A stretch of 35,727 nucleotides of DNA from an uncultured Tateyamaria sp. (GTDB lineage: Bacteria > Pseudomonadota > Alphaproteobacteria > Rhodobacterales > Rhodobacteraceae), in NCBI GenBank assembly GCA_905480645.1, contig CAJQRC010000047.1, forward strand, positions 1-35,727, in the 5' to 3' direction. Under the pieces are notes generated by a model that was not told the DNA's origin, searched no databases, and worked only from the letters and a program-made list of their open reading frames with translations. A program made the position numbers and the translations under genes. Positions 1 through 3,778 of the stretch are shown here, piece by piece; the stretch's first letter is position 1; each line of letters begins with the position of its first letter.

Positions 1-1311
1 CGCTTTGACCGCGTTAAAAGTAGCATCAACTGGCCCATCGCCTGTTTGAGTCGTCATTTGAAGTTGGTCATCAATAACCATAATCAAGTCGGCCACCTGT
101 GGCCCCTCAGTACCACATCGCACAGCCAGTTTTTCTATTTTGAGGCGTTCGTTGTCGTGTTCTGGCGCTGAATGCATTAATGCTATGAGGTCGTCATCAT
201 AGATTTCTTTTTTGCGATCAGCTAAAGCTTTAAAACGTACAAATACATCTTTAAGTTGGTTGGAGCCCAGTTCAAACCCAAGATCTTGAAGCTTGGATCG
301 CAAGGCTGCTCGACCTGAATGCTTGCCCATTACAATGTTTGTTTCTGATAGCCCTACATCTTCCGGACGCATGATCTCGAAGGTCTCAGAGTTTTTAAGC
401 ATGCCATCTTGGTGAATGCCAGATTCGTGTGCAAATGCATTCTTTCCGACGATTGCTTTGTTGAACTGCACAGGAAAGCCACTGACCGTCGCCACACGCC
501 TTGAAATATTCATAATTTTTGTACTGTCGACACCGGTCTGAAATGGCATGATATCATTGCGTACTTTCATTGCCATCACTACTTCTTCTAAAGCTGTATT
601 GCCTGCACGTTCTCCCAGCCCATTGACTGTACATTCGATTTGACGTGCACCTGCCTCAACGGCAGCAAGACTATTGGCTGTCGCCATCCCTAGATCATTA
701 TGGCAATGTGTAGCAAAAACCACACTGTCGGCACCAGGTACGTTCTTAATAAGCTTTTTAATTAATTCAGCGCTTTCTCGAGGAGCAGTATAGCCCACTG
801 TATCTGGAATATTTATTGTAGTTGCCCCTGATTTTATAGCAATCTCGACTACGCGATATAGGTAATCCAGTTCGGTGCGCGTCGCGTCCATCGGCGACCA
901 TTGGATGTTGTCGCAAAGGTTGCGAGCGTGTGTCACTGTTTGCTCAATACGTTCCGCCATTTCGTCCATTGTGAGATTTGGTATTGCGCGATGTAGAGGT
1001 GAAGTGCCGATAAAGGTGTGTATTCGCGGTCTTCGGGCGTGTTGTACTGCTTCCCAACACCGATCGATATCGCCAAATTGAGCGCGAGCAAGACCGCAAA
1101 TGATAGACGATTCTGTATTTTTAGCTATTTCTGAGACTGCATTAAAGTCACCCTCGGAGGCTATTGGGAAGCCTGCCTCTATAATGTCGACGCCCATATC
1201 ATCCAGCAGTCCGGCTATCTCAAGCTTTTCTGCGTGAGTCATTGTTGCACCGGGGGATTGTTCGCCATCTCGGAGGGTTGTGTCGAAGATAACAACGCGA
1301 TCTTGTGTCAT
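1..1311 (-). CDS. leuA: 2-isopropylmalate synthase, 3' end cut by window edge
   Basis: LeuA condenses acetyl-CoA with 2-oxoisovalerate, the first committed step of leucine synthesis in the cytoplasm. The frame is open from the ATG at 1309-1311 to the left edge, 437 codons with no stop, so roughly the last 80 residues are missing. The N-terminus carries the HMGL-like signature DTTLRDGEQSPG (residues 10-21, with catalytic Arg14 and metal ligand Asp15), and the metal-binding motif THCHNDLG has His202 and His204. The last residues seen (GDGPVDATFNAVKA) are typical of the start of the LeuA allosteric domain, where leucine feedback binds. This separates it from homocitrate synthase. A purine-rich AAGAGAAC precedes the start. 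The gene follows a leucine-rich leader peptide on the same strand, which indicates control by leucine supply. Confidence 0.95.
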   Translation of the reverse strand, partial: MTQDRVVIFDTTLRDGEQSPGATMTHAEKLEIAGLLDDMGVDIIEAGFPIASEGDFNAVSEIAKNTESSIICGLARAQFGDIDRCWEAVQHARRPRIHTFIGTSPLHRAIPNLTMDEMAERIEQTVTHARNLCDNIQWSPMDATRTELDYLYRVVEIAIKSGATTINIPDTVGYTAPRESAELIKKLIKNVPGADSVVFATHCHNDLGMATANSLAAVEAGARQIECTVNGLGERAGNTALEEVVMAMKVRNDIMPFQTGVDSTKIMNISRRVATVSGFPVQFNKAIVGKNAFAHESGIHQDGMLKNSETFEIMRPEDVGLSETNIVMGKHSGRAALRSKLQDLGFELGSNQLKDVFVRFKALADRKKEIYDDDLIALMHSAPEHDNERLKIEKLAVRCGTEGPQVADLIMVIDDQLQMTTQTGDGPVDATFNAVKA

Positions 1312-1342
1312 TTTAGTTCTCTTTTTATCTGATCCTGAAGCA

Positions 1343-1434
1343 TTTGGCGCGCTGACTATCCTCTGAGCGTACGCGCCTAAAGGCTGCGCTCAGAGGCAAA
1401 TTAGGAGCAGCAAGCCAAGCATACTGGCGCCAAA
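1343..1434 (-). promoter_or_regulatory. leuA leader with mutually exclusive hairpins (attenuator candidate)
   Basis: Read on the minus strand, CCTCTGAGCG (1387-1396) pairs perfectly with CGCTCAGAGG (1360-1369), a 10-bp stem with a 17-nt loop. Inside that loop GGCGCG (1372-1377) can instead pair with CGCGCC (1346-1351), which crosses and so excludes the first stem. The same downstream segment can alternatively pair with TTTGGCGC (1427-1434), within the leader peptide coding part. Such competing pairings around a Leu-codon run are what transcription attenuation uses. No U-tract follows either stem, so a textbook intrinsic terminator is not visible and the readout (termination or initiation of leuA translation) is open. 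Confidence 0.6.
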
Positions 1435-1470
1435 ATTGCGCAATCCCGATATATGCTGAGTGTACGACAT
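1390..1470 (-). CDS. leucine-rich leader peptide of leuA (leuL-like)
   Basis: A 26-codon frame ends in MLGLLLLICL and then TGA, so six of the last ten residues are leucine, four of them consecutive (codons CTG CTC CTA after TTG). This is the signature of an amino-acid attenuator leader: ribosomes stall on the leucine codons when charged tRNA-Leu is scarce. The first in-frame ATG is at 1468-1470. A -10-like TATGAT (1476-1481) sits only five bases before it, so the transcript may begin at the ATG itself (leaderless). An internal ATG at 1420-1422 gives a 10-residue alternative; neither has a clear Shine-Dalgarno sequence. The stop codon lies inside the first arm of a 10-bp stem. The peptide is too short for routine gene callers. 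The call rests on composition and position; the sequence is not known to me from a database. Confidence 0.75.
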   Translation of the reverse strand: MSYTQHISGLRNFGASMLGLLLLICL

Positions 1471-1475
1471 AGGTT

Positions 1476-1504
1476 ATCATACATCTGGTCTATCCCAAAT
1501 GAAA
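1476..1504 (-). promoter_or_regulatory. candidate promoter of the leuA leader
   Basis: On the minus strand TATGAT (1476-1481) matches the -10 consensus at five of six positions; 17 bases upstream is TTTCAT (1499-1504), a poor -35. It places the transcript start at about 1468-1470, the first base of the leader-peptide ATG. Confidence 0.4.
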
Positions 1505-1583
1505 AGAGTGGAATCCGAGTTAGTGTATTTATTAGATATTTCACTAACAAAGTTACTGGAATAGGGGATCTAAAGGACTAGTT

Positions 1584-2255
1584 ATGAGATCAATGGAACA
1601 AGTATTAATCATAGGGGCATCAGGCGGCATTGGGGCTGCTTTATCGGTGGAATTTGCTGAAAAAGGTTACTCCGTTGATGAAATTTCACGTTCAGTAGAT
1701 GGATTTGATTTGACAGACGATCGGTCAGTTGCAAAGCATTTGGAAGATCGTGGACCATATCATAGGGTTGTAATCGCTACGGGTGCTTTGGAAATTTCGG
1801 GCATATCTCCTGAAAAAACTGTAAAAAACTTAACTACTCAATCTATGGTTGATCAATTTACCGTAAACGCAGTAGGTCCAGCATTAGTTTTGAGACATGC
1901 CCACACTCTTTTACCACGTGACAAAGCGTGTGTGTTCGCAGTGCTTTCAGCGCGCGTAGGATCCATTGGTGATAATCGTATAGGTGGTTGGATCAGTTAT
2001 CGTAGTGCAAAGGCGGCTCTAAATCAGATTGTACGCACCGCTTCCATCGAAATTGCTCGGAGCCACCGGAAAGCGGTATTAGTAGCCTTACATCCTGGTA
2101 CAGTTGCCACGTCTTTCACCGAAAAATATGTAGATCGACACCCAACGGTCCCTGCAAAGATTGCCGCTCGGAATTTGATTGCTGTTATGGATCGCCTAGA
2201 AGTAGCCGAAACAGGTGGTTTTTTTGATTACACTGGTGCGCAGGTGCCGTGGTGA
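1584..2255 (+). CDS. short-chain dehydrogenase/reductase, C-factor-like
   Basis: A 223-residue classical SDR: a single Rossmann-fold, NAD(P)-dependent oxidoreductase of the cytoplasm. The nucleotide-binding motif GASGGIG is at residues 11-17, and the catalytic residues Ser122, Tyr139 and Lys143 (Y-R-S-A-K) are all present, so the protein should be active. The general look (short N-terminal region, few residues after the substrate loop) resembles CsgA/C-factor-like SDRs; the substrate is unknown. AAGGA at 1573-1577 is six bases from the ATG at 1584; a second ATG at 1593 is less well placed. Its stop overlaps the start of the photolyase gene, so the two are probably co-translated. SDRs of this type next to a cryptochrome/photolyase recur in alphaproteobacteria (my recollection), which hints at a link to photoprotection that the sequence alone does not prove. 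Confidence 0.88.
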   Translation: MRSMEQVLIIGASGGIGAALSVEFAEKGYSVDEISRSVDGFDLTDDRSVAKHLEDRGPYHRVVIATGALEISGISPEKTVKNLTTQSMVDQFTVNAVGPALVLRHAHTLLPRDKACVFAVLSARVGSIGDNRIGGWISYRSAKAALNQIVRTASIEIARSHRKAVLVALHPGTVATSFTEKYVDRHPTVPAKIAARNLIAVMDRLEVAETGGFFDYTGAQVPW

Positions 2256-3778
2256 CCCGATTAATTCTGATACTTGGTGACCAATTAAACATGAATTTAG
2301 CAGCATTAAAAACTGCTGATAAGCTCCATGATGTAGTGGTGATGGCTGAGGTGATGCAGGAGGCAACATATGTTTCACATCATCCTAAAAAAATAGCTTT
2401 AATTTTATCGGCCATGCGCAAGTTTTCGGCTCATTTAAAGGCAAACGGCTGGAAGGTTGCTTACTCAAGGTTAGAGGATGCAGACAATACGCAGTCTATT
2501 CCAGGTGAATTAATTCGTTACGCAGAGCGTTATGAAGCAAGCTCCGTTATCGTGACTGAGCCTGGTGAATGGCGTTTAATCACTTTGCTGCAAGAATGTC
2601 CCTTGCATGTAACTCAGTTAGAAGATGATCGGTTCATTGCTAGTCATGCTGTTTTTGAGAAGTGGGCTTCAGGACGAAAAGCCCTTCGCATGGAGTATTT
2701 CTATCGCGATATGCGCCGTAAAACTGGTTTGCTAATGGATGACGATAAACCGGCTGGGGGACGTTGGAATTTTGATCAAGAAAATCGCAAACCTGCTCCG
2801 GACGATATACACTATAACGGTCCTATGAAATTCCAACCGGATGATCTGGTTGAGGATGTCTTGAACTTGGTTGAGGTTCGTTTTAATCATCATTTTGGGG
2901 ACTTACGTCCGTTTTGGTTTGCCACGGATCAAGATCAAGCGCATCAGGCTCTTGCATTTTTCGTCAAATACGGGCTTGTCAAATTTGGTGACTATCAAGA
3001 TGCGATGCTGGCTGAAAACAAATTCTTATACCATGCACTAGTAGCGCCTTATTTAAACATGGGTCTGCTAGAACCACTTGAAGTTTGCAGAGCAGTTGAA
3101 AATGCTTGGAAAGCTGGTCACGTCCCCATTAATGCTGCTGAAGGCTTTATCAGACAGATCATTGGATGGCGTGAATATGTACGCGGTATCTATTTTCTTG
3201 AAGGTCAAGGGTATGCTGATCGTAATGGATTGAAACATCATCGCAAATTGCCCGAAATGTTCTGGGGGGGTGAAACTAATATGCGGTGTATTCAAAAGGC
3301 AGTTGAACAAACCCGAACAGAGGCCTACGCGCATCATATTCAAAGGTTAATGATTACAGGAAATTTCTCACTATTGGCTGGAGTTGATCCTAGCGAAGTT
3401 TCCCAATGGTATTTGGCTGTTTACGCGGACGCTTTCGAATGGGTTGAGGCTCCAAATGTAGTTGGTATGTCGCAATTCGCTGATGGGGGGGTTATAGCAT
3501 CTAAACCTTATGTATCTTCTGGAGCTTATATTAACAGGATGTCTAACTACTGTAAGGGTTGTGCCTACAAGGTTAGCGTGAAGATTGGTGAAGGTGCGTG
3601 CCCTTTTAACCTGTTATATTGGCACTTTTTAGACCGGCACAGGGCGCGATTTGAGCGCAATCCACGGATGGGTAATATGTATCGCACGTGGGATCGAATG
3701 GAGAGTGAAAAACGCTCCAGAGTTCTGGCCGAAGCGGATGAATTTCTTTTGCGGATGGAGGCTGGTGAAGTTTTATGA
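2249..3778 (+). CDS. phrB: iron-sulfur (6-4) photolyase / cryptochrome, PhrB type
   Basis: A 509-residue flavoprotein of the FeS-BCP (CryPro) branch, which repairs UV-induced (6-4) photoproducts using blue light, with FAD and usually a ribityllumazine antenna. Four cysteines that hold a [4Fe-4S] cluster in Agrobacterium PhrB (C350, C438, C441, C454 there) appear here at 347, 435, 438 and 451, a constant offset of three. The paired histidines needed for (6-4) repair are at 362-363 (AHHIQRL), followed by the MITGNFSLL helix and the FAD-binding region (about 390-415). The N-terminal antenna domain begins LILILGDQLN. Start: GTG at 2249, or GTG at 2252, whose GTGA overlaps the upstream TGA; both give nearly the same protein. 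It is co-transcribed with the SDR gene. A purely sensory cryptochrome cannot be excluded, but the repair residues favour photolyase. Confidence 0.93.
   Translation: MVTRLILILGDQLNMNLAALKTADKLHDVVVMAEVMQEATYVSHHPKKIALILSAMRKFSAHLKANGWKVAYSRLEDADNTQSIPGELIRYAERYEASSVIVTEPGEWRLITLLQECPLHVTQLEDDRFIASHAVFEKWASGRKALRMEYFYRDMRRKTGLLMDDDKPAGGRWNFDQENRKPAPDDIHYNGPMKFQPDDLVEDVLNLVEVRFNHHFGDLRPFWFATDQDQAHQALAFFVKYGLVKFGDYQDAMLAENKFLYHALVAPYLNMGLLEPLEVCRAVENAWKAGHVPINAAEGFIRQIIGWREYVRGIYFLEGQGYADRNGLKHHRKLPEMFWGGETNMRCIQKAVEQTRTEAYAHHIQRLMITGNFSLLAGVDPSEVSQWYLAVYADAFEWVEAPNVVGMSQFADGGVIASKPYVSSGAYINRMSNYCKGCAYKVSVKIGEGACPFNLLYWHFLDRHRARFERNPRMGNMYRTWDRMESEKRSRVLAEADEFLLRMEAGEVL

Follow-up and report, generated by a model that had tools for sequence, protein, structure and literature searches.

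A leucine-rich frame upstream of leuA

The 2-isopropylmalate synthase gene leuA of an uncultured Tateyamaria sp. is preceded by a short leucine-rich reading frame, which raises the question of whether leucine controls leuA through this leader and, if so, by what route. The whole stretch of DNA analysed, here called the window, comprised 35,727 nucleotides of contig CAJQRC010000047.1. leuA occupies positions 1 to 1311 on the minus strand and runs off the window. Its start codon is the ATG at 1311-1309, and it encodes HMGL-like, HCS_D2 and LeuA_dimer domains. A short-chain dehydrogenase gene at 1584-2255 on the plus strand is divergent from leuA. A gene for a deoxyribodipyrimidine photolyase-related protein lies at 2249-3778, also on the plus strand, and overlaps the dehydrogenase gene by 7 bases as listed.

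The leader, a leucine-rich frame of 26 codons and a TGA stop, was present ahead of leuA on the same strand, at 1470-1390, as given in the preliminary description. Its translation is MSYTQHISGLRNFGASMLGLLLLICL*, ending MLGLLLLICL, and its Leu codons are located at 1443-1441, 1419-1417, 1413-1402 and 1395-1393. The leader ORF is probably leaderless. In enterobacteria, too, leuA is preceded by a leader peptide with leucine codons, that of the leu operon (leuL, Rfam Leu_leader). Attenuators in proteobacteria were reportedly surveyed by Vitreschak et al. in 2004. The Tateyamaria locus shares with leuL the leucine codons in a peptide upstream of leuA. Unlike leuL, it contains no terminator-like site and is not matched by any Rfam family: Rfam gave no matches up to an E value of 5 in window 1200-1620, and none at the gathering score in 10 relatives. 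No description of a leuA leader in Alphaproteobacteria was found in the literature searched, which covered few subscription papers.

Conservation of the leader peptide

Loci were sampled from named genomes (80 encoding related LeuA) and from the genome of the window and 60 relatives (30 loci). A looser leader rule recognised a leader in 84 of the 110 sequences; 16 failed for want of a recognised LeuA start motif and 10 had no leader. Fourteen of those 16 showed a leader by a strict rule. Seven of the 84 were left out, namely a duplicate and six that were of another type or fell outside the order, which gave a set of 77 Rhodobacterales leaders. Alignment A1 holds 66 of these, 10 having been removed because of a long gap to leuA or a leuA start that was not nearby, and one as a duplicate.

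Counted back from the stop, Leu was encoded at codon -4 in 77/77 Rhodobacterales leaders, at -5 in 73/77, at -6 in 76/77 and at -7 in 66/77. The leucine leader peptide proposed for this locus was borne out by the Leu codons kept in the Rhodobacterales. Third positions varied at all four of these codons. They were restricted at two of them, codon -4 being CTT or CTA in 75/77 leaders and codon -5 CTC or CTT in 64/77. Such restriction is also what a pairing constraint would demand. By the strict rule, a leader ending xLLLLxRL* (Rhodobacterales) or GLLLLxCP* (many Rhizobiales) was found in 64 of 80 sequences, these being the window and 79 of the 80 named-genome loci. Several of the 16 sequences failing the strict rule showed a leader by the looser one. 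By the rules used, L051 had neither a leader nor the stem S1 described below, and L072 and L137 had no S1.

Class-wide (n = 80) the stop codon was TGA in 69 sequences, TAG in five and TAA in three, with TGG at that place in three, under a selection rule that favoured stop codons. Stop codon changes were matched in the 3' arm of S1 where TAA was used in L057 and L126 and where TAG was used in L063, L125 and L140. L136 had a TAA stop without a compensating change in that arm. Judged by its pattern of conservation, the leader looks like a translated ORF under RNA-structure constraint. In L058, L070 and L071 (Caulobacter and an uncultured Caulobacteraceae) S1 was kept and TGG took the place of the usual stop, which would extend the leader beyond this point.

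The N-terminal half of the peptide varied widely except for an element at codons 6-7. The sequence CATATC stood there (M-x4-HI) in exact form in 44/77 Rhodobacterales leaders, a count that partly follows from the use of the M-x4-HI rule in choosing some of the start codons. The window has CATATA at this place (1455-1450, minus strand). CATATC was considered as a pairing partner and rejected, GATATG being found downstream in only one of the 44 leaders. A promoter-like pattern that included CATATC matched a single place in the genome, which is on a different contig.

Promoter and start of the leader

The TATGAT box reported five bases ahead of the leader ATG was confirmed at 1481-1476 (minus strand). 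A consensus scan placed a -35-like hexamer, TTTTCA, at 1505-1500 on the same strand, 18 bp upstream of TATGAT, and the pair scored 9/12 against the consensus at this spacing. In 77 relatives the first two positions of the -35 hexamer were T at frequencies of 0.90 and 0.83. In 65/77 Rhodobacterales, the window included, the leader ATG followed a TA-type -10 box at a distance of 5-9 nt, which was 7 nt in 46 of them. The same spacing was seen at 0/77 leuA ATGs and in 2/77 sequences in one shuffle of the upstream regions. By a loose rule, an SD-like site preceded 1/77 leaders compared to 59/77 leuA starts. The base before the leader ATG was C in 82% of Rhodobacterales leaders.

Transcription probably starts at or beside the leader AUG. 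The promoter geometry in 65/77 relatives is what favours the leaderless start that had been suggested for the leader. A leaderless leader ORF is also reported for trpL of Sinorhizobium, likewise an alphaproteobacterium, in the part of PMC7298713 available. There the amino acid is tryptophan and the leader is a transcription attenuator that releases the sRNA rnTrpL, whereas no terminator-like site was found here.

Stems at the stop codon

The stop codon of the leader was confirmed to lie within a stem of 10 bp, S1. Its 5' arm, CCTCTGAGCG, at 1396-1387 (minus strand) contains the stop codon and pairs with the 3' arm CGCTCAGAGG at 1369-1360. In A1, 98.5% of S1 cells were paired and 3/10 pairs showed two-sided changes. 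(Two-sided changes are counted here as sequences, not events.) Among 71 class-wide sequences (A2) two-sided changes were found in 8/10 pairs; A2 was chosen partly by S1 pairing and by the stop codon, so its S1 and stop figures are biased upward. The comparisons argue strongly for S1.

A second stem of 6 bp, S2, joins GGCGCG at 1377-1372, inside the S1 loop, to CGCGCC at 1351-1346 on the same strand. In A1 92.4% of S2 cells were paired, with five two-sided cells compared to 0.7 in shuffles, and the last pair was unpaired in 21/66 sequences. The swap test, in which own pairing is compared with swapped pairing, gave z -3.99 for S2 before thinning. After thinning to 37 divergent sequences it gave z -1.42, with 429/5000 permutations as good; by group z was -1.73 in 13 Rhodobacterales and -0.37 in 24 others. 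Because the thinned test gave no support, S2 is claimed for the Rhodobacterales and on the basis of A1. An inner GCC/GGC hairpin in the S1 loop was 94.9% paired with no two-sided change. It would be an alternative to S2, with which it would compete.

The preliminary description held that alternative pairings excluded one another. All of its pairings are present in the window (10, 6 and 8 bp), and the third does compete with the second. S1 and S2 cross but have no base in common; they could therefore form one pseudoknot and are not alternatives by themselves. In the window they would make an H-type pseudoknot with loops of 9, 2 and 8 nt. A possible pseudoknot is a better reading of the 10-bp and 6-bp stems than a pair of antiterminator and terminator. 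The third pairing, 1434-1427 with 1350-1343, can be formed by the sequence. It showed no conservation signal when the region before the Leu codons was compared with the downstream region, own against swapped, in 55 sequences (z 0.02). Minimum-energy folding of the sequence by itself gave z -1.10, with 34/200 shuffles as good. The best fold makes use of this third pairing and was not accepted as the main structure. The folding energy is unremarkable, and the case against chance is made by the comparative evidence.

Pairing of the Leu codons with the leuA start region

The preliminary description had missed a further helix, P0, between the leucine codons and the stretch before leuA. Its 5' arm in the window is formed by the Leu codons CTG-CTC-CT at 1410-1403 (minus strand), with one mismatched base, and its 3' arm is AGGATCAG at 1336-1329, 17 nt before the leuA ATG. 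In A1 68.2% of P0 cells were paired and 42 cells were two-sided, compared to 24.8 in shuffles. Column 15:111 (n = 66) had 17 two-sided changes, 19 cases of the common pair, 25 unpaired and five gaps. The arms varied together, with CTTAGCC facing GGCTAAG in some relatives and CCTAAGCC facing GGCTTAGG in others.

At distances of up to 35 nt from the leuA ATG, own pairing exceeded swapped pairing both in the Rhodobacterales (70 sequences, z -8.36) and outside them (52 sequences, z -3.79). After thinning to 37 divergent sequences z was -4.85 and 0/5000 permutations were as good. Outside the Rhodobacterales unbroken helices of at least nine pairs were found in 10/52 own pairings compared to 24/520 swapped ones. 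In several distant genomes the Leu codons pair with an SD-like stretch near the leuA ATG; in L136, for instance, TCCTTAT pairs with ATAAGGA. In many Rhodobacterales, the window among them, the SD-like site is not covered by the 3' arm, which is placed upstream of it, as read off the sequences and not counted. P0 in the window consists of CTG and TCCT paired with CAG and AGGA, 7 bp with one mismatch, at -8.3 kcal/mol. It was no better than shuffles, 65% of which were as good. The evidence supports P0 as a pairing of the class, weak in the species of the window. In L029, L042, L047 and L111 an extra stretch was seen between S2 and the 3' arm of P0, with the GCTAAG-type arm kept nearer leuA.

In the comparison of leuA upstream regions across the Rhodobacterales that the preliminary description had suggested, the Leu codons of the peptide were kept and S1 and P0 covaried. 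A leader ORF and a conserved RNA element upstream of leuA are almost certainly real. Comparison among genomes speaks for the leader, its Leu codons and the promoter spacing as well as for S1 and the class-wide P0.

Distribution of the element

Covariance model R1 was built from A1. A shorter, class-wide model, R2, was built from the 71 sequences of A2, 20 of them from the class search and one the window. R1 matched 193/199 sampled genomes of the family, at least nine of which had supplied model sequences, and 34/385 alphaproteobacterial genomes. R2 matched 114/385 alphaproteobacterial genomes; 21 of these matches, the window included, had helped to build it. In a sample of 398 genomes of the phylum, for which the share of the class is not given, R2 matched 81, of which 80 were Alphaproteobacteria. 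The one match outside the class had an E value of 0.009.

The LeuA start motif was found downstream in 28/30 loci fetched from R1 class matches, the window among them. LeuA was found downstream in 52/55 loci fetched from R2 matches, partly the same places as the 30. This check was a motif match in the fetched stretch and not a full annotation. In the genome of the window the leuA site was the only confident model match. A second genomic copy was looked for and rejected, the other matches having E values of 0.61 (same place, opposite strand) and 2.76. The element is real and conserved, and is of a known but poorly understood kind.

Relation to the actinobacterial LEU element

The LEU element was described in 2005 for Actinobacteria by Seliverstov et al., and its mechanism was left unsettled (PMC1262725). 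In the sections available of that paper leuA is preceded by a Leu-run leader ORF, whose leucine codons form a base stem with the Shine-Dalgarno box of leuA; a pseudoknot and an alternative hairpin complete the element. Mutations in the leuA leader of Streptomyces coelicolor are said there to have some effect inconsistent with classical attenuation; elsewhere in the same paper leucine-codon mutations are said to have no influence on regulation.

The alphaproteobacterial element shares with the LEU element the Leu-run leader ORF before leuA and the lack of a typical terminator. For the pseudoknot, S1 is strong and S2 is 92.4% paired in the Rhodobacterales, with a thinned swap z of -1.42. For the base stem, P0 is supported class-wide; in the window it is no better than shuffles and lies upstream of the SD-like site. 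The inner GCC/GGC hairpin may correspond to the alternative hairpin. The two differ in phylum, in the LeuA protein, which is distant (27.5% identity to Nocardia LeuA), in stem sequences and in the position of the P0 3' arm upstream of the SD-like site in many Rhodobacterales.

The regions upstream of leuA in four actinobacteria (Nocardia, Tsukamurella, Nonomuraea and Microbacterium) were compared. All four had a leucine leader with an adjoining long stem. The 5' arm precedes the stop codon in these four, whereas S1 includes it. Nocardia and Tsukamurella have a crossing helix, GACCGGC/GCCGGTC. Microbacterium has a 10-bp base stem, GCTTCTTCTT/GAGAAGAAGC, with the leucine codons. The Nonomuraea and Microbacterium leaders have GLLLSC and GLLLLSC, respectively, beside the long stem. 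R2, built without actinobacteria, matched the Nonomuraea leader at E 5.4e-5 and the Microbacterium leader at E 2.1e-4, the latter mostly through the Leu-codon stretch. The control, Paracoccus, was matched at E 2.1e-8. The Nocardia and Tsukamurella leaders gave E values of 0.22 and 0.65, compared to 0.032 for an unrelated place in Nocardia. No such leader was found at a Streptomyces plasmid leuA.

Streptomyces lividans LeuL1, MRFGLLLLSCRGEGL, is a leaderless Leu-run leader before leuA without a typical terminator, as in the window, according to the portion available of PMC8079986. It resembles the GLLLLSC-type ends of alphaproteobacterial leaders. It differs in being reported there as an attenuator without further structure.

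Two alphaproteobacterial loci with leuA of the actinobacterial type were also seen. One on Sinorhizobium meliloti pSymB (L152) has an upstream Leu-rich frame, SLLLLGLIRGCRVR, with an R2 match at E 0.054. The other, on a Sphingomonas plasmid (L153), has the frame LLLRSLRLIRP with a 16-bp stem at the stop codon and an R2 match at E 6.6e-5.

Common descent with the actinobacterial elements appears likely from these comparisons. A wider reading is a serious possibility, though short of probable. The LEU element may be a regulator common to Actinomycetota and Alphaproteobacteria, either old or transferred, in which the Leu codons that stall the ribosome would also be the anti-ribosome-binding strand that hides the leuA start, and a pseudoknot from the stop codon would join both.

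Proposed mechanism and alternatives

No terminator-like site was found in the window. Among 77 relatives an octamer with six T was found in 6/77 and a run of five T in 3/77. Taken together, these results make an intrinsic terminator unlikely, in agreement with the missing U-tract reported earlier. Of the marks of a classical amino-acid attenuator, the Leu-rich peptide was found; a terminator hairpin with a U-tract, in competition with an antiterminator, was not.

The element is probably a leucine-responsive leader RNA of leuA with LEU-element anatomy, working by translational attenuation. Transcription would begin at or next to the leader AUG. A ribosome would translate the Leu-rich frame, the end of which, from its last codons through the stop, makes up the 5' arm of S1. 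The S1 loop would pair downstream as S2, giving the pseudoknot, and P0 would form between the leucine codons and the surroundings of the leuA ribosome-binding site. When leucine is plentiful the ribosome would finish and depart, P0 and the knot would refold and initiation at leuA would be hindered. When charged tRNA-Leu is scarce ribosomes would stall on the Leu codons and keep the 5' arm of P0 from pairing, which would allow translation of leuA. That leuA responds to leucine, that its translation is affected and that S1, S2 and P0 form jointly are inferences. Translational attenuation is favoured because the conserved pairing target is the leuA start region, and a mechanism at the level of translation seems reasonably probable. 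Evidence against it comes from the weak P0 of the window, the thinned swap result for S2, the three loci with TGG in the stop position and the leader mutants of Streptomyces coelicolor.

The main rival to translational attenuation is Rho-dependent termination. Excess leucine would free the RNA between the leader stop and leuA, on which Rho would load and end transcription, and a stalled ribosome or the knot would prevent this. A leader peptide without an intrinsic terminator suits such a scheme, and the same idea was put forward for actinobacterial cys leaders in the text available of PMC1262725. Rho-dependent termination has no need of P0, however, which targets the region before the leuA start, and it is considered unlikely.

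The RNA could instead be the binding site of a regulatory protein, with the peptide mattering little; such a site has been proposed for the LEU element of Actinobacteria. The compact crossing helices and base helix would fit a protein site, which the authors of PMC1262725 preferred in the part of the paper available. Such a site does not account for Leu codons that are kept despite third-position variation, nor for the several stop codon changes matched in the stem. The candidate protein ML1624 is reported there to be absent outside Actinobacteria, whereas a like element occurs class-wide in Alphaproteobacteria. A protein site is thus rather less probable than Rho.

The base model of the preliminary description was classical attenuation of transcription, in which S1 would be the antiterminator and S2 the terminator. 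It would explain a leader peptide with Leu codons and the crossing of S1 and S2, but it leaves the conserved P0 without a role and lacks a terminator-like site in the window and frequent T runs in the 77 relatives, and is very unlikely. A leader RNA or peptide that acts chiefly in trans, as do rnTrpL/peTrpL in Sinorhizobium meliloti, a member of the same class with a leaderless leader ORF (PMC7298713, as far as available), is hardly credible given the variable N-terminal half of the peptide, apart from the codon 6-7 element, and the lack of a terminator to release a short RNA.

Significance

The large and diverse alphaproteobacterial set adds covariation to what is known of the LEU element and points to pairing of the Leu codons with the leuA start region. 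If the alphaproteobacterial and actinobacterial sets are of one kind, the case for the actinobacterial candidate protein is weaker. On the wider reading of the LEU element given above, neither a terminator nor a regulatory protein would be needed. The mechanism becomes testable in easy hosts such as Rhodobacter and Caulobacter.
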